Positions 1 through 8,563 of a DNA stretch of 8,563 nucleotides are shown piece after piece. The notes under the pieces were generated by a model, which did no database searches, was not told the origin of the DNA, and saw nothing but the letters and a program-made list of their open reading frames with translations. Within the stretch, counting starts at the first letter, position 1. Each line of letters opens with the position of its first letter. Source of the stretch: Spirochaetaceae bacterium (GTDB taxonomy: Bacteria; Spirochaetota; Spirochaetia; Treponematales; Treponemataceae). The stretch covers positions 1 through 8,563 of the forward strand of contig JAGCMR010000293.1 of NCBI GenBank assembly GCA_017646305.1, read 5' to 3'. The position numbers and the translations under genes are program-made.

Positions 1-729
1 AAGTCCAATGCTGAAATGTACGATACCCGTGGTGGTATTTTGCCCAAGGTTTGGGAATTAGGTACCTTTATAAAGGTTTGGTCGGAAGCTCCTATTATTC
101 GGTATTTGGGAAATTCAATTTTGGTAGCAGGTGGAGCTTCTCTGCTGGCTATTATTTGTGGAATTCCTGCTGCTTATGCCCTTTCCCGTATGGACTTTAA
201 GGGTAAGAGCTTTTTCATGGGTATGGTGATTATGAGCCAGATGTTCTCACCTGTAGTTTTGTTGGTAGGAATTTACCGAATGATGGTGAACATGGGCTTG
301 AACAATAGTATTCTGGGACTTATTCTGCTGAATGCTGCCTTTAACCAAGCCTTTGTTATCTGGTTGTTACGTGGAACCTTTACCTCAATTTCTTCTGAAA
401 TGGAGCAGGCCGCAAAAATTGATGGTTGTGGAACTGTTCAGGCATTGGTTCGAATTTTGTTACCTACTGCTGCCCCTGGTATTGTAACAACTCTTATCTT
501 CGTATTCATCAATTCTTGGAATGAATACACCATTGCCTTGACCTTGATTTCCTCCGACATCCTTAAGCCCATAACTGTGGGAATTAACGTGTTCTATGGA
601 TTCAATATCATCAAATGGCAATACCTCTTTGCAACTTCAATCTTTGCAACTATTCCAGTAATTATTCTCTTCCTGTGCATTGAAAAGCACTTGGTAAGTG
701 GATTGACTGCTGGTGGTGTAAAGGGTTAA
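1..729 (+). CDS. Carbohydrate ABC transporter permease, MalG family (5' truncated)
   Basis: The reading frame is open from base 1, so the gene starts upstream; 242 residues are visible of a family usually about 270-290 long. It is an inner-membrane permease subunit of a binding-protein-dependent importer. At least five hydrophobic segments are visible (around nt 100-170, 205-275, 300-370, 475-545 and 615-690). The cytoplasmic EAA loop that docks the ATPase starts at nt 397 and reads EMEQAAKIDGCG, followed by a conserved LP about 11 residues later. The C-terminus GLTAGGVKG is typical of MalG-like permeases. The family mostly moves oligosaccharides, sugar derivatives or polyols; the substrate cannot be read from this sequence. 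The 33-nt gap to the next gene, without a terminator, suggests co-transcription with the PdxA-family gene. Family assignment is firm; the substrate is unknown. Confidence 0.93.
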   Translation, partial: KSNAEMYDTRGGILPKVWELGTFIKVWSEAPIIRYLGNSILVAGGASLLAIICGIPAAYALSRMDFKGKSFFMGMVIMSQMFSPVVLLVGIYRMMVNMGLNNSILGLILLNAAFNQAFVIWLLRGTFTSISSEMEQAAKIDGCGTVQALVRILLPTAAPGIVTTLIFVFINSWNEYTIALTLISSDILKPITVGINVFYGFNIIKWQYLFATSIFATIPVIILFLCIEKHLVSGLTAGGVKG

Positions 730-762
730 TAGTAGAAGCAGCTTGTTTGTACAGGAGATTTT

Positions 763-1737
763 ATGTCTACAAAACCGATTATTGCAATAACCATGGGGGA
801 TCCCGCTGGTATTGGCCCCGAGATTGTGGTTCGTGCTTTGGCAGATCCTCTTGTACAACAGGTTGCCTTTTGTCATGTAGTGGGAAGTCGTTCCGTTCTG
901 GAAGATGCCTGTAAACGGTGCGATTTACCCACTACCATCCTTGATTCCCAATGGGCTTGTGTGGAGGATGTAGGAAGGGTTGAAGCCGGAACCTATCACT
1001 ATGGTGAAATTTCAGCTGAATGTGGTGTTGCATCCTTTGAATATATAAAAAAAGCTATTGAGCTTGCACTAGCTGGAAAAGTCCAAGCAGTGGCAACTGC
1101 TCCTATCAACAAGGAGTCCCTCCGTGCTGGCTCCATTCCCTTTATTGGTCACACAGAGATTTTTGGCGAACTTACGAATACAGTTGATCCTCTTACCTTG
1201 TTTGAGGTACGGAATCTGCGGGTATTTTTCTTGACCCGTCACGTTTCCTTAAAAAAAGCCTGTGAGCTTGTTACCAAAGAACGAATTATAGATTATGTAG
1301 TTCGTTGTACAAATGCATTGAGCCAGCTTGGTATCACAGAGGGAACTATGGCCATTGCTGGGCTGAATCCTCATTCTGGGGAGCATGGTCTGTTTGGGCA
1401 GGAAGAGGTGGAGGCTGTAGCTCCAGCGGTGGAAGAGCTACAAAAAGAAGGTTATAAGGTTGTAGGCCCTGTTAGTGCTGATTCAGTTTTCCATTTGGCT
1501 TTGCAGGGGCGCTTCAATAGTGTGCTTTCCCTGTACCACGACCAAGGTCACATTGCCACAAAAACCTACGATTTTGAACGGACAATTTCCATTACCTGTG
1601 GAATGCCAGTTTTACGTACCTCCGTTGATCACGGTACTGCTTTTGACATTGCTGGTACAGGACAGGCTTCTGCTGTTAGCATGATAGAGGCCATTGCTGT
1701 AGCGGCAAAATATGCTCCTTTTTGGAAGGCTTTATGA
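763..1737 (+). CDS. pdxA: PdxA-family NAD-dependent dehydrogenase (PdxA or catabolic PdxA2 type)
   Basis: The protein has 324 residues, the usual length for the family. The start is fixed by AGGAGA at 753-758, 4 nt before the ATG. PdxA oxidises 4-phosphohydroxy-L-threonine in pyridoxal phosphate synthesis; PdxA2-type paralogues oxidise 4-phospho-D-threonate or -erythronate in sugar-acid breakdown. Visible motifs are [10 protein letters not shown] (residues 11-20), GHTE (H130), TRH (H160), NPHSGE (H204), YHDQGH (H259) and [15 protein letters not shown] (286-300). H160, H204 and H259 fit the three metal-binding histidines of the E. coli enzyme. The form YHDQGHI followed by [10 protein letters not shown], together with a sugar transporter just upstream, recalls the catabolic PdxA2 group more than biosynthetic PdxA; this is inferred from memory of family alignments. 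The stop codon overlaps the start of rsmG (ATGA), indicating translational coupling. Confidence 0.93.
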
Positions 1738-2414
1738 GTTCAAACACATCTTCATCCCTTTTCCAGCAGGGACTTGTTGCACTAGATTTTTCTCAAGAAG
1801 AAATTCCTGCCCTGCAAGAAAAACTGGAAGGATATATTCGTGAATTAATGCTGTTTAATGCTGCCTACGATTTGGTAGGGGCTGATAATAAAGATCAAAT
1901 TGTGGTGAATCATATTCTGGATAGCCTTTCTGCTTGGAAATATATTCGTGAGCTTGCTCTAGAGCGACAAGCTGAAGGACAACAGCTACAAATTGCGGAC
2001 ATTGGTTCTGGTGGTGGTTTGCCAGGCATTCCTCTTGCCATAGCTTTGCCTCAGTTTCAGTTTGTGCTGGTGGAGCGGATGAGTAAGCGTTGTGCCTTTT
2101 TGGAAAATTGTGCCGCCGTCCTTGGCTTGCGTAATGTGCAGGTGGAAAATCTTCAGGCAGAGCAGGTGGAAGAAGGCTCCTTTGATGTGGCTACCTTCCG
2201 AGCCTTTCGTCCGCTGGATAAAAAAATGATTCGTACCTTGCTACGAACAATTAAGCAGGAGGGGATTTTGGCCGCTTATAAGGCAAAGCTAGAAAGTATT
2301 GAGTCTGAAATGACTGCCATTTCTTCCATTGTACCTGATTATAAAATAAAACCGCTGGAGGTTCCCTTTTTGGAAGACCGCCAACGGCATTTAGTGCTTA
2401 TTCAGCATTCATAA
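1734..2414 (+). CDS. rsmG: 16S rRNA (guanine-527-N7)-methyltransferase RsmG (GidB)
   Basis: The protein has 226 residues from the ATG at 1734, a normal length. This start overlaps the pdxA stop in an ATGA arrangement and has GGAAGG 5 nt upstream (1724-1729). An in-frame TTG at 1722 is less likely because it would put the purine-rich site inside the gene. RsmG uses S-adenosylmethionine to methylate G527 of 16S rRNA; its loss gives low-level streptomycin resistance in several bacteria. Visible motifs are NHILDSL (59-65), the SAM-binding glycine loop [13 protein letters not shown] (88-100), then LVERMSKR, the acidic strand after the loop, and [11 protein letters not shown]. The region [10 protein letters not shown] stands where many homologues have a WN...NLT motif, so it is somewhat divergent. 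The gene ends 5 nt from the stop of the converging TPR gene. It likely shares a transcript with the permease and pdxA, an ordinary housekeeping gene riding on a metabolic operon. Confidence 0.95.
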
Positions 2415-2419
2415 TCACA

Positions 2420-3760
2420 TTACATTGTATCAACTTTTTTCAGCCGCTTAATCAACTCAGCCTTGTCTACCAAGTCTATAGGTCGGCCTTCGATGTATTT
2501 CTTTGCTTCATCAGAAAAGGCACCAGCAGTGAGACAAATTCCGTGTCCAGCTCGTGCATCCTTAATTCGTCCGTGGAAGTCTCGAATATGGAGCTCACCG
2601 ATAGAACCTGTGGTACGGTAAAAACGGAAGATTACAGTGTCTTCCCATTTTGCAGTTTCAACCTCAGTTAAGACTTCTGTGTTGTCGTTTGTTACGCCAA
2701 TATCCAGAATACGAACAACAGCTCTGCCGTAAAATGTTTCTACCAGTTTGCGGCACAGGGCTACAAAGTCGCTGCTTCCAGCAGTAAGATAGATTTGCAG
2801 ATTTTTGTTCTGCTTTAATTCTGTGTATCGAGTAATCAAGGAATTTACATCACGGTAGGCTGGATTAATAACCTGTACCTCCCGCAGCATGGAAAGCCCT
2901 GAATCCACTGAACCATCCTGAAGATAACATCCTGCTAATCGGTACTTAATTTCCAACAAAATATCTTGGGGAACATTAACGTGACGCAGGGCAATTTCAA
3001 AGTCTTGGATTGCCTTATCTAGAGTACCGCCGTTCATGTGCATGATACCAGCAGAGAGACAAGAGCGGGCTCCAAAATCTGGGTCTGCTCGTAGGTGCAT
3101 AAATACTTTAAGTGCCTTATCTCCAAAGCCTGTTTGTTGCATAGCATCTGCCATGGAAAACAAAACAACCTTTTCCTCTGGATTTTCCTCTAAGGCACGC
3201 TTTAGGTAAGGCAGAGCATCTCTGTATCGCTTCAGGTTATAAAAGGACAAACCAATGGTTTCGTTTAAGCCAGGAGCCTCCTGCCCAAAGGTAGAGGCCT
3301 TCCGCAAAAAAGGAATTGCCTTGTCGTAGGCGTTTGCCTGATAAAATGCTTGGCCAAGGTAATAATTTGCCTCAAAATTATTGTTGTTAATTTTGATAGC
3401 TGAGCTTAATCCCTTCATGGCATCTTCTGGCTTTTTGAGATTTAAGGCTGTAATTCCTTGTCGCAGAGCAACTTGAAAATAATCGATATCTTTGTTGGTG
3501 GATGCAAGATTCAGCAATTCTTCCAGCAGGGGAAGGGCCTTTTCCCAATTATGCTCTTGATAGTACAGGTTTGATAATTCTGTTAGAGCGGGAACGTTGT
3601 GAGGATTTTGGGATAATTTTTTTGTGGCATCTTTGATAATTACAGAACGTTTTCGTGTTTTAGAATTATTCTTTTTATTTTTTTTGCCAGAAATCGAAGT
3701 AAGAATGACAAGAAAAACAAGAATAACTACAACGGCAATGAGAATCGGTGAAATATCCAT
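2420..3760 (-). CDS. Membrane-anchored TPR protein with a degenerate Mrr-like C-terminal domain
   Basis: The protein has 446 residues from the ATG at 3758-3760. An N-terminal membrane segment (about 5-23) is followed by a strongly basic stretch (26-38), which places the rest in the cytoplasm. Residues ~45-315 are tandem tetratricopeptide repeats, for example ANYYLGQAFYQANAYDKAI and LPYLKRALEENP; these are protein-binding scaffolds. Residues ~330-440 resemble the C-terminal half of the Mrr restriction-endonuclease fold (GHGICLTAGAFSDEAKKYIEG, then PIDLVDKAELI). Where active Mrr proteins have the E-x-K catalytic motif, this one has H391-I-R393, and the following helix looks about 10 residues short, so nuclease activity is unlikely. 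A TM-plus-TPR cytoplasmic layout recalls LapB, but the C-terminus is unrelated. Transcription is from a divergent promoter shared with the LysM gene. An in-frame TTG at 3796 is rejected because it lies in the -35 box. The function is unknown. Confidence 0.85.
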   Translation of the reverse strand: MDISPILIAVVVILVFLVILTSISGKKNKKNNSKTRKRSVIIKDATKKLSQNPHNVPALTELSNLYYQEHNWEKALPLLEELLNLASTNKDIDYFQVALRQGITALNLKKPEDAMKGLSSAIKINNNNFEANYYLGQAFYQANAYDKAIPFLRKASTFGQEAPGLNETIGLSFYNLKRYRDALPYLKRALEENPEEKVVLFSMADAMQQTGFGDKALKVFMHLRADPDFGARSCLSAGIMHMNGGTLDKAIQDFEIALRHVNVPQDILLEIKYRLAGCYLQDGSVDSGLSMLREVQVINPAYRDVNSLITRYTELKQNKNLQIYLTAGSSDFVALCRKLVETFYGRAVVRILDIGVTNDNTEVLTEVETAKWEDTVIFRFYRTTGSIGELHIRDFHGRIKDARAGHGICLTAGAFSDEAKKYIEGRPIDLVDKAELIKRLKKVDTM

Positions 3761-3767
3761 AATATGT

Positions 3768-3796
3768 ATTATGACGTTCCTTTGCCAAGGTGTCAA
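3768..3796 (-). promoter_or_regulatory. Sigma-70-type promoter of the TPR gene, predicted leaderless
   Basis: On the minus strand, TTGACA (3796-3791, perfect -35) is followed by 17 nt and CATAAT (3773-3768, five of six consensus bases). The ATG at 3760 begins 7 nt after the -10 box. Transcription would therefore start at or next to the ATG, giving an mRNA without a leader. No Shine-Dalgarno sequence precedes the ATG, which agrees with this. The boxes and spacing are read directly; the start site is an inference. Confidence 0.75.
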
Positions 3797-3811
3797 GAAA
3801 GAAACTTGACA
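3791..3811. repeat. Inverted repeat joining the two divergent -35 boxes
   Basis: TGTCAAG (3791-3797) and CTTGACA (3805-3811) are perfect 7-bp inverted arms separated by 7 nt of A-rich sequence. The arms contain the -35 hexamers of the two diverging promoters, so part of the symmetry follows from having two TTGACA boxes back to back. The seventh matching base pair and the roughly two-helical-turn size leave room for an operator bound by a dimeric regulator, but this is not shown. Confidence 0.7.
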
Positions 3812-3834
3812 AGAATGGGTTTCAATAATAACAT
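3806..3834 (+). promoter_or_regulatory. Sigma-70-type promoter of the LysM-slt operon, predicted leaderless
   Basis: TTGACA (3806-3811, perfect -35), 17 nt, then TAACAT (3829-3834, four of six -10 consensus bases). The chosen ATG at 3842 begins 7 nt after the -10 box, exactly as on the opposite strand. Expected transcription start is at or beside the A of the ATG. No Shine-Dalgarno sequence is present upstream. The -10 box is weaker than that of the opposing promoter. Confidence 0.65.
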
Positions 3835-3841
3835 GTATTGT

Positions 3842-5500
3842 ATGGGCAAAAAAATCGGCATAAAGCTAGCAGACGGAAGCTTCTATCCTATTATGGAGGA
3901 TGGAGTTCCCCAAAAAAAACTGATGGAATTAACCACCGTTCAGGACAATCAGACCGCGGCATCCATTGATCTATACCGTTCCGAGCTAGGAACTATGGAA
4001 GATGCAGAATACGTGGATACTCTGGAAATTTCTGAGCTTGTACCTCATCCTGGTGGCGAGGCTAGTATGAGCTTTACCATCCAGCTGGATGAGAATAATA
4101 TGCTTTCTGCAGAGGTTCTTGATCCTGAATCTGGAAAAACTAGTGCAACTAAGGCCGATTTAATAAATCTTCCCTCTGAAAAAAGAAATTCAGTACCTGA
4201 TTATACGCTTTCTGAAATTTCCGATGATGATTTTGATGAGCCCCCTCTGCCAGAGGCTCCAGCAACCTGGTCTGAGGATGCTGAAGCTGAAGCTGATGGC
4301 TTTGATGATAGCTTGACAGCTGAGGATGTAGAAGCTTCAGAATCTAGTTCCTTGGATGTAAATAGCTTTGATATGTCAGATTTTGACCTAGATGATTTTG
4401 CAGCTGTTGATGATTCCCATGTGGATGCTCTTCTAGGAAATGATGACACGTTGGTAGCTAATGATTTTGTAAAAGAGCCTGTTCAGGAAGAAACTACATC
4501 TTTTGATCTACCTGATTTTGGAGAAACAACTCAGGATGAGCCAACTTCCTTTGACTTGCCTGATTTTGGAGAAACAGCTCAGGAAGAGCCTACATCCTTT
4601 GACTTACCTGATTTTGGAGAAACAGCTCAGGAAGAGCCCACATCCTTTGACCTGCCTGATTTTGGAGAAACAGCTCAGGAAGAGCCCACATCCTTTGACT
4701 TACCTGATTTTGGAGAAACAGCTCAGGAAGAGCTCACTTCCTTTGACCTGCCTGATTTTAATTTTGGAAATGAAGCTACAGCCTTTGCTTCCAATGAGAG
4801 TCAGCTGAGTGAGGACAACTATCTGGGAGATGGAGCTGATACAGTGTATGAGGACTCTCTTCCAGATTTTAGTAAATTTGAATTGCCTGATTTTGATGAA
4901 CCCTTGAAGAATGACTTTTCTTTTGGAGAAGAGTCTGGGTTATTTACAGAAAATGATTTTAAGGATCCCGCTTTTTATATGAACGAGACAACATCTTCAT
5001 CAAATCCCTTCGATTTTAGTGATCTGTACGATGAAAGAGAGGATGAATTAAAGCAGCAAGAAAATAGCAAGCGTCGAAGTGGTATTTCTGTTGTTATTTG
5101 TATTATTTGTGCTTTGGTGTGTGTAGGAATCTTGCTATTTATTCTCTTCCTTCTTCCTTCAAAGACTATTAACAATTTTATATCTTCTGAAAGTAGTGTA
5201 GCTTCTACGGAGGTTCATTCTTCCACAGGGGAAAGCCTAGTGGAACCAGATGAAACTGCTGCTGTAGAGGATGTGATTGTTATTGTGGAAACTCCTTCCG
5301 TAACTCCAGCACCACCACCACAGGTAGCAAAAAAGACTGATGTGGTACGTTATGAGGTAAAATGGGGTGATACACTATGGGATATTGCTCAGTCATATTA
5401 CAATAATCCATGGTTGTATCAGCGGATTGTCTCTGCAAATAATATTAAGAACCCTGACTACATTGTGGCAGGAACTGTTCTTGTTATTCCACCACAGTAA
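3842..5500 (+). CDS. Bitopic LysM protein with N-terminal DnaK substrate-binding-like domain and acidic repeats
   Basis: The protein has 552 residues from the ATG at 3842. Residues 1-113 align by eye with the beta substrate-binding domain of DnaK: IGIKLADG with SLGIETMGG, LTTVQDNQTAASI with FSTAEDNQSAVTI, and LDENNMLSAEVLDPESGK with IDADGILHVSAKDKNSGK. There is no nucleotide-binding domain and no helical lid. Residues ~115-405 are a low-complexity acidic region rich in D, E, S and F, with a 16-residue repeat array at nt 4484-4759. A basic KRR (409-412 region) precedes one membrane segment (~415-438), so the N-terminus is cytoplasmic. A proline-rich linker (~477-499) leads to a single LysM domain (503-551: YEVKWGDTLWDIAQ ... 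NNIKNPDYIVAGTVLVIP) that should bind peptidoglycan in the periplasm. In-frame ATGs at 3815 and 3833 lie within the promoter and are less likely. The slt gene follows after 7 nt. LysM and topology are secure; the Hsp70-like domain is a strong visual match not tested by search. Confidence 0.88.
   Translation: MGKKIGIKLADGSFYPIMEDGVPQKKLMELTTVQDNQTAASIDLYRSELGTMEDAEYVDTLEISELVPHPGGEASMSFTIQLDENNMLSAEVLDPESGKTSATKADLINLPSEKRNSVPDYTLSEISDDDFDEPPLPEAPATWSEDAEAEADGFDDSLTAEDVEASESSSLDVNSFDMSDFDLDDFAAVDDSHVDALLGNDDTLVANDFVKEPVQEETTSFDLPDFGETTQDEPTSFDLPDFGETAQEEPTSFDLPDFGETAQEEPTSFDLPDFGETAQEEPTSFDLPDFGETAQEELTSFDLPDFNFGNEATAFASNESQLSEDNYLGDGADTVYEDSLPDFSKFELPDFDEPLKNDFSFGEESGLFTENDFKDPAFYMNETTSSSNPFDFSDLYDEREDELKQQENSKRRSGISVVICIICALVCVGILLFILFLLPSKTINNFISSESSVASTEVHSSTGESLVEPDETAAVEDVIVIVETPSVTPAPPPQVAKKTDVVRYEVKWGDTLWDIAQSYYNNPWLYQRIVSANNIKNPDYIVAGTVLVIPPQ
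4484..4759 (+). repeat. Tandem 48-bp coding repeat, 5 full units plus 36 bp
   Basis: Units start at 4484, 4532, 4580, 4628, 4676 and 4724; the last has 36 bp. Each full unit encodes a 16-residue block close to QEEPTSFDLPDFGETA. Units 3 and 5 differ at one base. Units 3 and 5 share the codon TTA in DLP and units 4 and 6 share CTG, so the latest expansion probably copied a 96-bp pair. The frame is kept throughout. Looser FD/LPDF relatives lie on both sides (around nt 4365-4400 and 4858-4902), suggesting the whole acidic region grew from this motif. Confidence 0.95.
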
Positions 5501-5507
5501 ACCGCCC

Positions 5508-7706
5508 ATGAACCAAAGAAAGAATCTTCTCTTAGTTATTCTTTTCACCCTGTTATTGGTGATGACAGGGTGTAATGATGGTAAAGCATTGTCTCCTCAA
5601 GAGCAATTTGGAGACAATGCCCATTATTTTATGGGATTAAAATACCTGCAAGAGGGACAAAAGGAAGAGGCTCTTAGTCAATTTAAAAAAGGGGTAAAAA
5701 AATCTGATGATTTTTTTGCAGAAAAATGTTTAGAAATACTTTGTCAGTTAGCATCAGAAAATGAACGAAAGGTGCTTGCCCATGAATTGGCAAAACAATT
5801 TCCCAGCTATGCTACGCAATTACAATTAGTCAAAATACTCTCTGATGCAGGGGAATATGGGCAAATTGTTTCTATTACGGGAAACGATTCTGGAATTGAA
5901 GCTGCAGAAAAGCCTGATGAACTAATTTATTTGCGACTTTTGGCCTTGGAACAGGATGGTAAGCAGGGCTTTGCAGGGGAGATTGAAGATTGGTTTTTCC
6001 ATTCCCCCATCACCTCCTTTCATAAAAAATATTTTGATACTCATAAGGATAGCCTTCTTTCCTCCCTATTTTCAGAGGAAGTGCAGCAATGTATAAGAAT
6101 TCGAATTGCAGTGTATCAGCGAGAGTATGGTCAAGCAGTTAATCTTTTGGCAAAAGTGCTGGAGACTCAAGAATATCCCACGCAATGGCTGGTGCAGCAG
6201 CCAGAGGAACTCCTTGTTGACATTGGGAAAACCTGTTTATATGGAACTAATCGATTGGTGGAAGTTGCCCAGTTTTTAGATGAATCTCTTGACGAAATTC
6301 AGTCAGAAAGTCCCAGTTACGTGGCTTTTTACTTGAATTTTTACGCTGGCCGATTGTATGACAAGGGTCTTGGCACTGGAAATAAAAAGGCCTTAGAAAA
6401 GTTTTTGGCTGCCATGGAGGCGGCGGATACTCCTGCACAATACGATAATGCCCTGTGGTATTATTTTTCTACCCAACTTAAAATTTCATCTTCAGAAGCA
6501 GAAGCTGCCATGAAGGAGTATATTCACACCATTCACGATGCTACCTATTATAGCGACTTTTTTGAAACATTGATTTTGCGGTATTTTACCGAGCGAAATT
6601 GGAGTGGTGTTCTGAAAAGCTTGATTTTGATTCGTGATTACGCCACTCAAGAGGTGGTTTCTCAGTATGCCTATCTTGCTGGCCGCCTTGTTCAGCTGGG
6701 ATTGGTGGATTTGAAGAATTTTTCTGTGGCTGACTTGCAGGCTATTATTGATAGTAAGGTAGCAAGTGAGGTCATTGAGGAAGATGCTACTGAGGCAGAG
6801 GGAGAGGAAGACCTCATCTTGCAGGATGCTGTGTCACAGGGGCTTTTTTCTATAGCCTATGGTACTGGCGGGGAACTCTACTACCGACTTTTGGCTGCCA
6901 CACAGCTGGATTATTCTCCTGCCGTTGTTCGCCAAAGCTTGTATCAAACAAAGGTGCTGGATGAATTCGTGCCAGAGCAAAACCTAGAAACCTTACTAGA
7001 AGGCCTTATGGTTTTTGATTTGCCCGACTATATTTATCCTGTATGGAAGGAAAATTCCAGTAAAATTAGTTTGGAGATGGCCCAACGAGTTGCTTCCTTT
7101 CTGTCCTTGTACGGAGTTCACCAGTATTCAGCCCAGGGATTGCGGCTTATGTCCAACGCCATCTTTCATGCAGATACTCAAACTACACGGGAAATGTATC
7201 AACTGGCTTATCCCCGGCTCTATAGTCAGGAAATTGCCACCGCTGCCACGGACTATAACCTGCCAGAATACTTGATTTACGGTCTTATTCGCAGTGAAAG
7301 CTTTTTTGATGCAGCTGTTTCTTCCCATGCAGGAGCTGTGGGCTTGGCTCAGCTTATGCCTGCCACTGCTGGAGATATAGCACGGAAGCTCAAGATGGAA
7401 GACTTTGATTTGCAGGACCCTGGCACCAGCGTTAATTTTGGCAGCTTTTATCTTGCCGAATTGATTGGCCGCCTAGACAATTCCATTATAGATGCCCTGT
7501 ATTCTTACAATGCGGGAATTACCAATGTCCGCAAATGGAAGCGCCTGTTCCCAGATTTGCCTCCAGACCTAACGGTGGAATTAATTCCTTTTACGGAAAC
7601 GAGAAATTATGGTAAAAAGATTGTGTCTGCCTCTGCAGTGTATGGGGATTTATATTTTGAAATTCCTCACAAAGCCATAGTAGAAAAGATTTTGTTTGGT
7701 AAATAG
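5508..7706 (+). CDS. Slt-type soluble lytic transglycosylase, predicted lipoprotein
   Basis: The protein has 732 residues from the ATG at 5508. The open frame extends further upstream, but only this start gives a signal peptide (basic NQRK, hydrophobic LLLVILFTLLLVM) ending in TGC with the likely lipidated Cys22; the lipobox is loose, as is common in spirochaetes. Residues ~40-560 are mostly helical with TPR-like pairs (for example MGLKYLQEGQKEEALSQFKKG), resembling the superhelical body of Slt70. An acidic patch (EEDATEAEGEED) lies near residue 425. The C-terminal catalytic domain (~580-720) carries IRSES with the catalytic Glu597, then GAVGLAQLMPATAG, LYSYNAG and ETRNYGKK. Such enzymes cleave the MurNAc-GlcNAc bond to form 1,6-anhydro ends. 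The gene follows the LysM gene by 7 nt and has no Shine-Dalgarno sequence, so translation probably depends on ribosomes finishing the LysM gene. The catalytic assignment is firm. Confidence 0.93.
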   Translation: MNQRKNLLLVILFTLLLVMTGCNDGKALSPQEQFGDNAHYFMGLKYLQEGQKEEALSQFKKGVKKSDDFFAEKCLEILCQLASENERKVLAHELAKQFPSYATQLQLVKILSDAGEYGQIVSITGNDSGIEAAEKPDELIYLRLLALEQDGKQGFAGEIEDWFFHSPITSFHKKYFDTHKDSLLSSLFSEEVQQCIRIRIAVYQREYGQAVNLLAKVLETQEYPTQWLVQQPEELLVDIGKTCLYGTNRLVEVAQFLDESLDEIQSESPSYVAFYLNFYAGRLYDKGLGTGNKKALEKFLAAMEAADTPAQYDNALWYYFSTQLKISSSEAEAAMKEYIHTIHDATYYSDFFETLILRYFTERNWSGVLKSLILIRDYATQEVVSQYAYLAGRLVQLGLVDLKNFSVADLQAIIDSKVASEVIEEDATEAEGEEDLILQDAVSQGLFSIAYGTGGELYYRLLAATQLDYSPAVVRQSLYQTKVLDEFVPEQNLETLLEGLMVFDLPDYIYPVWKENSSKISLEMAQRVASFLSLYGVHQYSAQGLRLMSNAIFHADTQTTREMYQLAYPRLYSQEIATAATDYNLPEYLIYGLIRSESFFDAAVSSHAGAVGLAQLMPATAGDIARKLKMEDFDLQDPGTSVNFGSFYLAELIGRLDNSIIDALYSYNAGITNVRKWKRLFPDLPPDLTVELIPFTETRNYGKKIVSASAVYGDLYFEIPHKAIVEKILFGK

Positions 7707-7755
7707 GCTGAAATCAAGGATTTTTCAATTAAAAAATTTAGTAATACTTAAGTCC

Positions 7756-7784
7756 TTGTACTTTTCAGAAAAAAAAGGTATTAT
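7756..7784 (+). promoter_or_regulatory. Possible sigma-70-type promoter of the NfnA-type gene
   Basis: The 119-nt gap after slt is A+T-rich. It holds TTGTAC (7756-7761, TTG of the -35 consensus kept), 17 nt, and TATTAT (7779-7784, five of six -10 bases). Transcription would start near 7791, giving a leader of about 35 nt that includes the G-rich ribosome binding site. No convincing terminator for the slt transcript is visible in the gap, so some read-through is possible. The -35 box is weak. Confidence 0.5.
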
Positions 7785-7825
7785 TTCTCGTTAAATTTTT
7801 CTCCAATTTTGTTGTGGGGGTGTAC

Positions 7826-8563
7826 ATGTATAAAATCATCGAAAAACAGCAGCTTTCTGCAGATGTTTTTTTTATGAGGGTAATGGCTCCAGAGATTGCC
7901 AAAAATCGTAAGGCTGGCCAGTTTGTGCTGGTACAGGTGGACTTGGAGTTTGGGGAGCGAGTGCCTCTGACGATTGCAGATGCAAATGCTGACGAGGGCT
8001 GGATTGCCCTGGTTTTTCAGACGGTAGGTGCCACCACCTTAAAGCTTTCTCGGTTTAACGTAGGTGAGGAAGTTGCTGCAATCCTTGGCCCCTTGGGAAA
8101 TCCCACCCACATCGAGAAGGTGGGAACTGTTGTTTGTGTTGGTGGTGGAATTGGTGTTGCCCCATTGTATCCCATTGCCCAGGCTTACAAGGCTGCTGGC
8201 AACAAGCTCATTGTGATTATGGGTGCCCGCAACAAGGAATTGTTGATTTTTGAAGACAAGATGCGTGCCATTGCCGACGAGCTGGTAATCATGACCGACG
8301 ATGGTTCAGCAGGAAGAAAGGGCCTTGTTACCGAGCCCCTAAAAGAATATTGCGAACAGAATCCTAAACCAGATGAAGCGGTAGCCATTGGACCACCTAT
8401 TATGATGAAGTTCTGTGCCGCCACCACCAAACCATACGATGTGCATACTGTTGTTTCATTGAACACCATTATGATTGACGGAACAGGAATGTGCGGATGC
8501 TGTCGTGTTACCGTAGATGGCAAGACCCAGTTTGTTTGTGTAGACGGCCCCGAATTCGATGGT
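7826..8563 (+). CDS. NfnA/SudB-type FAD and [2Fe-2S] reductase subunit (3' truncated)
   Basis: The start ATG at 7826 is preceded by GTGGGGGTG (7814-7822), a usable ribosome binding site. 246 residues are visible in an open frame to the window end; homologues run about 275-285. Seen in order: FAD-binding RVPLTIAD (45-52), the nucleotide-binding loop GGGIGVAPLYPIA (106-118), and MCGCCRV (222-228) with Cys238 in FVCVDGPEFDG. This last pattern marks the small subunit of NADH-dependent ferredoxin:NADP oxidoreductase (Nfn), also called sulfide dehydrogenase SudB. In NfnA the [2Fe-2S] cluster is held by three Cys and one Asp, to my knowledge; D218, C223, C226 and C238 fit. C225 is an extra cysteine at a position usually occupied by another residue. 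PyrK is related but has a different cysteine spacing. The large glutamate-synthase-like subunit (NfnB/SudA) would be expected just downstream. Confidence 0.88.
   Translation, partial: MYKIIEKQQLSADVFFMRVMAPEIAKNRKAGQFVLVQVDLEFGERVPLTIADANADEGWIALVFQTVGATTLKLSRFNVGEEVAAILGPLGNPTHIEKVGTVVCVGGGIGVAPLYPIAQAYKAAGNKLIVIMGARNKELLIFEDKMRAIADELVIMTDDGSAGRKGLVTEPLKEYCEQNPKPDEAVAIGPPIMMKFCAATTKPYDVHTVVSLNTIMIDGTGMCGCCRVTVDGKTQFVCVDGPEFDG

Follow-up and report, generated by a model that had tools for sequence, protein, structure and literature searches.

An orphan Hsp70 substrate-binding domain on a transmembrane LysM protein encoded beside a flagellar lytic transglycosylase gene in spirochaetes

Introduction

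Two described systems stand closest to the gene that is the subject of this paper. The first is the Hsp70 chaperone family with DnaK, in which an N-terminal actin-like ATPase domain and an interdomain linker precede the substrate-binding domain (SBD), whose beta part (SBDbeta) is followed by a helical lid. The second is the flagellar lytic transglycosylase (LTase) BB0259 of Borrelia burgdorferi, which is reported to be needed for the hook to cross the peptidoglycan and to interact with FlgJ (PMC8517470). The gene in question lies in a stretch of 8,563 nt (the window, i.e. the whole of the DNA analysed) from a Spirochaetaceae bacterium (GCA_017646305.1, contig JAGCMR010000293.1, positions 1 to 8,563 of the forward strand). 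It encodes a protein in which an SBDbeta is fused to an acidic linker, a transmembrane (TM) helix and a LysM domain, and it stands directly before a gene of the BB0259 type.

A question to which this gene may speak is how the internal flagellar machine of spirochaetes makes and places the hole in the peptidoglycan; BB0259/LTase cuts the wall, and we know of no factor described as bringing it to the site. The SBD protein is a candidate for this, having an Hsp70 half predicted in the cytoplasm and a predicted wall-binding part in the periplasm, and it can be put to the test in treponemes that grow in culture. We put the chances slightly above even that it is a single-pass inner-membrane adaptor for the assembly of the periplasmic flagellum, coupling a cytoplasmic partner to the opening of the wall. 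If this is true, a whole bacterial order uses an Hsp70 SBD that has neither motor nor lid, a case that would inform on the abilities of the isolated beta domain.

Identity and architecture of the protein

A prediction made earlier from the letters of the window (the original prediction) had proposed an orphan Hsp70 SBD on a transmembrane LysM protein. Profile searches, profile-profile alignment and the predicted fold bear this architecture out, as does its occurrence in a wide family; the LTase next door and the LysM-less Borrelia-like members described below had been overlooked. When the 552-aa open reading frame (ORF) was scanned with Pfam, residues 1-113 matched PF00012 at positions 394-495 only (E 5.4e-7), which confirms the proposed absence of both ATPase domain and lid. 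The family profile matches spirochaete DnaK-type SBDs at E 9.8e-14 (hhalign). The AlphaFold (AF2) model of SBDbeta has eight strands (predicted local distance difference test, pLDDT, 75) and the PDB matches listed for it by Foldseek are all Hsp70s, i.e. the Hsp70 match held in profile and structure comparison and no unrelated fold matched better. Residues 1-113 align with DnaK 396 to about 510 of the solved structures; the start of the ORF corresponds to DnaK 396-398, in agreement with the overlay from about S398 that had been expected.

The domain resembles the SBD of DnaK and other Hsp70s in its eight-stranded sandwich (about 16-26% identity in the structural alignments) and in the LTTV-DNQ and LDExxxLxAxxxD motifs, which align between them. 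Unlike the chaperones, the window protein has no N-terminal actin-like ATPase domain, it starts past the interdomain linker, which reads VLLLDVTP or LLLLDVTP in the DnaK-type sequences compared (seven), and an acidic linker takes the place of the helical lid and leads on to TM and LysM. The AF2 model of the Treponema phagedenis relative P0207 has one short helix after SBDbeta (106-111), followed by a stretch with pLDDT below 50. The arch and pocket letters of the window domain are also changed with respect to DnaK (A10, L30, V33). At position 8, which we take to correspond to DnaK E402, K or R is found in 55/55 aligned relatives.

The region that follows is strongly acidic (89 Asp/Glu and 11 Lys/Arg in residues 114-423), and its equivalent in P0207 is mostly below pLDDT 50. 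The TM helix is predicted at pLDDT about 94 in the same relative, and the K-R-R that precedes it in the window protein suggests that the N-terminus lies inside. The C-terminal LysM domain, above the Pfam cut-off, is what the protein has in common with LysM membrane proteins in general; the majority of the lineages seen have it. Among the Pfam and NCBIfam matches listed for the window proteins there was no model spanning the SBD head and the LysM domain together, and relatives are named in the databases as LysM peptidoglycan-binding domain-containing protein, Hsp70 family protein or even Chaperone protein DnaK. No description of an SBD-TM-LysM protein or architecture was found in the open-access literature searched; the parts are known, and the combination and its genomic place are undescribed as far as we searched.

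Distribution in spirochaetes

Residues 1-130 of the window protein retrieved 1310 relatives (best 120 listed), a relative from the T. denticola side 324 (best 120 listed) and a deeper relative 59; PF00012 and PF01476 occur together in 57 of the latter. The organisms named among the relatives listed for the last two queries, a minority of these hits, are all spirochaetes, and 14 of 15 named contig loci belong to Treponema, Spirochaetaceae or Spirochaetales. A Halobacillus locus (L015) was rejected as a member, its 22-residue match being judged a chance one. The viral contigs and plasmids searched yielded no relatives.

The genome surveys covered the phylum of T. porcinum (392 genomes) and its order (241 genomes); genome completeness was not given, so that absences may be assembly gaps. 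Profile A5 located 136 SBD places in 135 of the 392 phylum genomes at E 1.4e-20 or better, in frames of 185-1061 aa. The next matches begin at E 2.3e-18 and fall mostly in Hsp70-sized frames, in other words the separation is clean. Within the order, as counted by eye from the listing, the best match was at E 1e-20 or better in 198 genomes, weaker in 41 and absent in 2. The search across spirochaetes that had been suggested along with the original prediction thus found a widespread family.

The genome that we take to be T. pallidum Nichols (G059) has a LysM domain above the cut-off; its SBD was missed by Pfam and recovered at E 6.1e-12 by profile A2, which was built without the G059 member. TPASS_0042, given as LysM in PMC4403809, is likely the T. 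pallidum label of the gene, judging by place and domain. TP0049 was also considered as this label and is wrong, since a table of the same source has it as an M23 peptidase.

Association with the flagellar transglycosylase

The ATG of the LTase gene stands 7 nt past the stop of the SBD gene. This spacing is operon-like, and the two products are probably made together. The downstream frame, scanned from 5514, reaches 597.4 bits with NF047373 (flagellar assembly lytic transglycosylase; cut-off 234), and its translation also shows SLT PF01464, a lipobox-like TGC, and ES, GLAQ and YNAG motifs. The enzyme is a periplasmic lipoprotein of another family and the likely functional partner of the SBD protein.

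The LTase family was above cut-off in 166 of the phylum genomes, and as 150 of these were listed, the adjacency counts are lower bounds. The SBD gene is directly upstream of the LTase in at least 133 of the 150 (97 found by A5 and 36 of a diverged form). Seen from the other side, at least 97 of the 136 SBD places are followed directly, on the same strand, by an LTase of the listing. The SBD gene is on another contig in 9 of the 150 genomes and elsewhere on the contig in 2. In the remaining six, the gene upstream of the LTase is ABC-transporter-like (G297) or of LysM/M23 type (G280), the contig ends near the LTase (G322 and G346), the SBD gene is missing (G382, see below), or an orphan SBD with a less strong match, again joined to an acidic linker and TM, lies in a frame of 255 aa apart from the listed LTase (G362). 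A transglycosylase is next in 11 of 14 named-contig loci, and in the other 3 none was seen before the locus ends.

The Borrelia-like form

Two loci that we presume from their gene order to be Borrelia (L081 and L083) show the order divergent TPR (tetratricopeptide repeat) gene, acidic protein, LTase. A six-frame search revealed an SBD in the gene for the acidic protein (33 bits, E 2e-9), with a domain start that has no ATG. The idea that this gene had lost both ends was an artefact of an ORF list restricted to ATG starts. With the two members added (profile A7), a diverged SBD was found in 36 of the 42 listed LTase genomes that are negative by A5 (E 1.5e-24 to 2.8e-15, frames of 272-432 aa); 2 of the 36 genomes had members in A7 itself. 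All 36 diverged genes are directly upstream of the LTase.

The Borrelia-like gene, presumably BB0260, is thus like the window gene in its position between a divergent TPR gene and the LTase and in its SBD (diverged), acidic linker and TM. It is unlike it in that the LysM domain is missing, the cleft letters are degraded and the domain start has no ATG. Neither LysM nor any other Pfam family was matched in the two Borrelia-like proteins tested. Judged by sequence, SBD, linker and TM are common to the Treponema and Borrelia-like branches. We note that KFDLSL of the Borrelia-like protein, considered as a linker motif, is placed in strand 8 by the alignment.

Some 3.4 kb from the orphan SBD, the two loci hold another Hsp70, which has about 500 aa and stops behind SBDbeta (L081 14575-16083 and L083 14591-16081, both on the minus strand). 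In L081 it covers PF00012 positions 2-501 of 599.

Co-occurrence with flagella

FlhA (PF00771) was found in 347 of the 392 phylum genomes. It is present in 134 of 135 SBD-positive genomes (A5) vs 213 of the 257 others (Fisher p 5.5e-8, kinship not corrected); these others still include the 36 Borrelia-like genomes, all of them FlhA-positive. G343, the one SBD-positive genome without FlhA, matches the LTase family strongly (2.9e-133) and may be incomplete. The same tendency is seen in another 80 order genomes (the 37 negatives, all included, and 43 of the about 93 positives outside the phylum sample), where FlhA occurs in 43/43 SBD-positive vs 19/37 SBD-negative genomes.

Conservation of the cleft

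Conservation was calculated from 55 non-redundant members (effective number 28.6), the Borrelia-like members being kept apart. I5, I7 and Q37 are invariant. Conservation is also among the highest of SBDbeta in I5-P16 and L30-Q37, two stretches that we take to align with the DnaK loops L1,2 and L3,4. Eleven positions were taken as equivalents of the DnaK peptide contacts. They average 3.46 bits vs 2.52 for the whole domain, a value reached by 25/100,000 random position sets and by 204/100,000 sets drawn among the 50 hydrophobic-type positions; two of the eleven, positions 39 and 41, are variable. The pocket letters differ from those of DnaK, as had been predicted: A10 replaces M404 in 96% and L30 replaces F426 in 94% of the family.

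The two Borrelia-like members aligned have a degraded cleft signature in which Q37 is lost and LADG has become LSND or LSNK. This is the main evidence against peptide binding, which we place close to even, and because of it the domain may have a general function other than holding a peptide in the cleft.

The same observation bears on a different explanation, namely that the Hsp70 fold is kept only as a beta-sandwich module for protein-protein contacts or oligomerisation, with an empty cleft and another face in use. The Borrelia-like members retain the fold signature and the locus without the cleft letters, the replacements of M404 and F426 are nearly general, and there is no lid to hold a peptide; outside the Borrelia-like branch, however, both cleft loops are conserved beyond random expectation. 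We regard such a module as possible, if rather unlikely; a flagellar adaptor could be built on it as well.

The conserved loops and the SBDbeta fold would also suit a holdase that is tethered to the inner membrane, works without ATP, captures unfolded proteins there and possibly passes them to DnaK; a full-length DnaK-type match is present in 10/10 SBD genomes checked. This is very improbable in our view: a role in general quality control is at odds with the place beside a flagellar LTase and with how rarely the gene occurs in FlhA-negative genomes, and the letters of the hydrophobic pocket are unlike those of DnaK.

Proposed role

Architecture and locus suggest an ATP-free link between cytoplasm and wall at the site of flagellar assembly. 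In the adaptor that we narrowly favour, the LysM domain (in the Borrelia-like form the TM helix alone) would position the protein at the wall, and SBDbeta with the acidic linker would dock a partner, from the cytoplasm or the basal body, by one of its extended segments. With no ATPase domain on the protein, ATP would play no part in this binding. The LTase would thereby open the wall where the rod or hook grows.

Several observations, besides the degraded cleft of the Borrelia-like members, weigh against this adaptor. When 20 loci were taken by place, a transglycosylase was next in 14 and not in 6, and in the five of these six that were inspected the next gene is of Ig-repeat (immunoglobulin-repeat) type (L057, L058), of FtsK type (L060, L061) or a TPR gene (L063). 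In eight SBD genomes out of 135 (G152, G240, G264, G268, G300, G319, G324, G331) the LTase family gave no match at E 1e-20, and in 8 more it gave only weak ones (about E 1e-50), so that about 16 of 135 are without a strong match. In one genome (G382, L085 1229-4782) the TPR gene directly adjoins the LTase gene and the SBD gene is missing from between the two, and FlhA occurs in 19 order genomes that are SBD-negative. Moreover, neighbourhood and co-occurrence are correlations along one phylogeny, and no binding, localisation or mutant data on the SBD protein were found in the open-access literature searched.

The 16 genomes without a strong LTase match lower our confidence in a flagellar adaptor and raise it for a factor of the envelope or of division that is not specific to flagella. 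Such a protein would link the turnover of peptidoglycan with the cytoplasm and have other partners besides the LTase. The genes next to the SBD gene in the loci just named are in line with such a factor: the downstream gene of L057 and L058 has 1600 aa, with Ig repeats found by profile in L057 and a similar look in L058, and FtsK was found by profile in L061, with L060 looking alike. The 8 genomes without an LTase-family match point the same way. On the other hand, the protein follows flagella even where the LTase is not listed: 27 of the 135 SBD genomes have no listed LTase (11 of them show intermediate matches, E 3e-72 to 4e-101), and FlhA is present in 27/27. Likewise, the SBD is missing from 44/45 FlhA-negative phylum genomes and 18/18 FlhA-negative ones among the 80 order genomes. 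We consider a general envelope factor improbable and retain the flagellar adaptor.

The linker and its motif

A D-F-x-L-type motif recurs at a nearly fixed distance after strand 8. Most of the 55 aligned relatives have it, and in the weighted family position 120 is D in 68% and position 121 F or Y in 70%. In species with long linkers LPDF-type units are repeated: LPDF was counted 57 times, spread over 21 of the 55 linkers, whereas shuffled sequences gave a mean of 0.44 and at most 3; this control ignores tandem duplication, such as the 48-bp repeat of the window, and several linkers are incomplete owing to the TM finder or the end of the locus. Docking of the motif in cis was considered and is unsupported, as residues 113-142 of P0207, which include the motif, are below pLDDT 50 and form no strand (AF2).

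The repeated motifs could have a part in a more specific scheme, in which SBDbeta is an ATP-free reader of the state of flagellar assembly and licenses the LTase through the membrane, i.e. a checkpoint from cytoplasm to wall. Here SBDbeta would grip, on the cytoplasmic side, a strand left exposed on a flagellar or export-gate protein that is not yet assembled, and the linker motifs would be competing or trans ligands. We think this quite improbable.

Relatives with 94-100% identical SBDs span 480 to 596 aa, partly from different start calls, and the copy number of the 48-bp repeat may vary among close relatives. A FDLPDY, close to the linker motif, occurs in the LTase; the likeness is probably a coincidence because the LTase and the linker are expected on opposite sides of the membrane.

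Other features of the window

The gene order of the window is ABC permease, pdxA, rsmG, divergent TPR gene, SBD ORF, LTase gene and the gene for a dihydroorotate-dehydrogenase-type reductase subunit (coordinates in Table 1).

Table 1. Positions of the SBD gene, its parts and the adjacent genes in the window
Feature	Position	Strand	Basis
SBD gene, coding sequence of 552 aa from ATG to stop: SBDbeta, acidic linker, TM, Pro-containing stretch, LysM	3842..5500	+	Relatives with the same architecture
Orphan Hsp70 SBDbeta, residues 1-113	3842..4180	+	Pfam, PDB sequences, hhalign, AF2, Foldseek
Acidic low-complexity linker, residues 114-410, predicted cytoplasmic	4181..5071	+	Composition; model of the T. 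phagedenis relative
P-D-Y-T-L, window form of the D-F-x-L-type motif after strand 8	4196..4210	+	Aligned relatives (55)
48-bp tandem repeat, 5.8 copies, encoding repeated SFDLPDFGE-type units	4483..4759	+	Repeat search; inside the acidic linker
Single TM helix, about residues 415-438, preceded by K-R-R	5084..5155	+	Sequence; model of the relative
LysM domain, residues 504-550	5351..5491	+	PF01476, 47.1 bits, cut-off 20.9
Flagellar assembly lytic transglycosylase lipoprotein, BB0259/LTase type	5508..7706	+	NF047373.1, SLT PF01464, motifs
Divergent membrane-anchored TPR protein, restriction-endonuclease-like C-terminus	2420..3760	-	Pfam; homology to the Borrelia-like TPR gene

Both in Treponema and in L081 and L083, the gene for a membrane-anchored TPR protein adjoins the SBD gene, and the TPR gene of the window is homologous to those of the two Borrelia-like loci (blastp E 6e-41 and 4e-38). 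The product of the window's TPR gene, scanned to 3766, matches PF04471 in the C-terminal restriction-endonuclease-like domain (36.1 bits, cut-off 21). The flagellar collar protein FlcA was considered for this neighbour and rejected, as NF047371 gave 43.7 bits vs a cut-off of 300, i.e. TPR similarity only. The G382 locus without an SBD gene continues with mnmG and rsmG-like genes and offers a natural absence for comparison. A frame for the cytoplasmic filament protein CfpA, which was considered as a partner, was located in G059 (NF040882).

Seven promoter-like sites were found in the window vs 4.3 expected. Two of them are divergent sigma-70-like candidates between the TPR and SBD genes (3806-3834 on the plus strand and 3796-3768 on the minus strand), and both -10 boxes end 7 nt before the respective ATG (SBD gene 3842; TPR gene 3760). 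The mRNAs of the two genes may be nearly leaderless.
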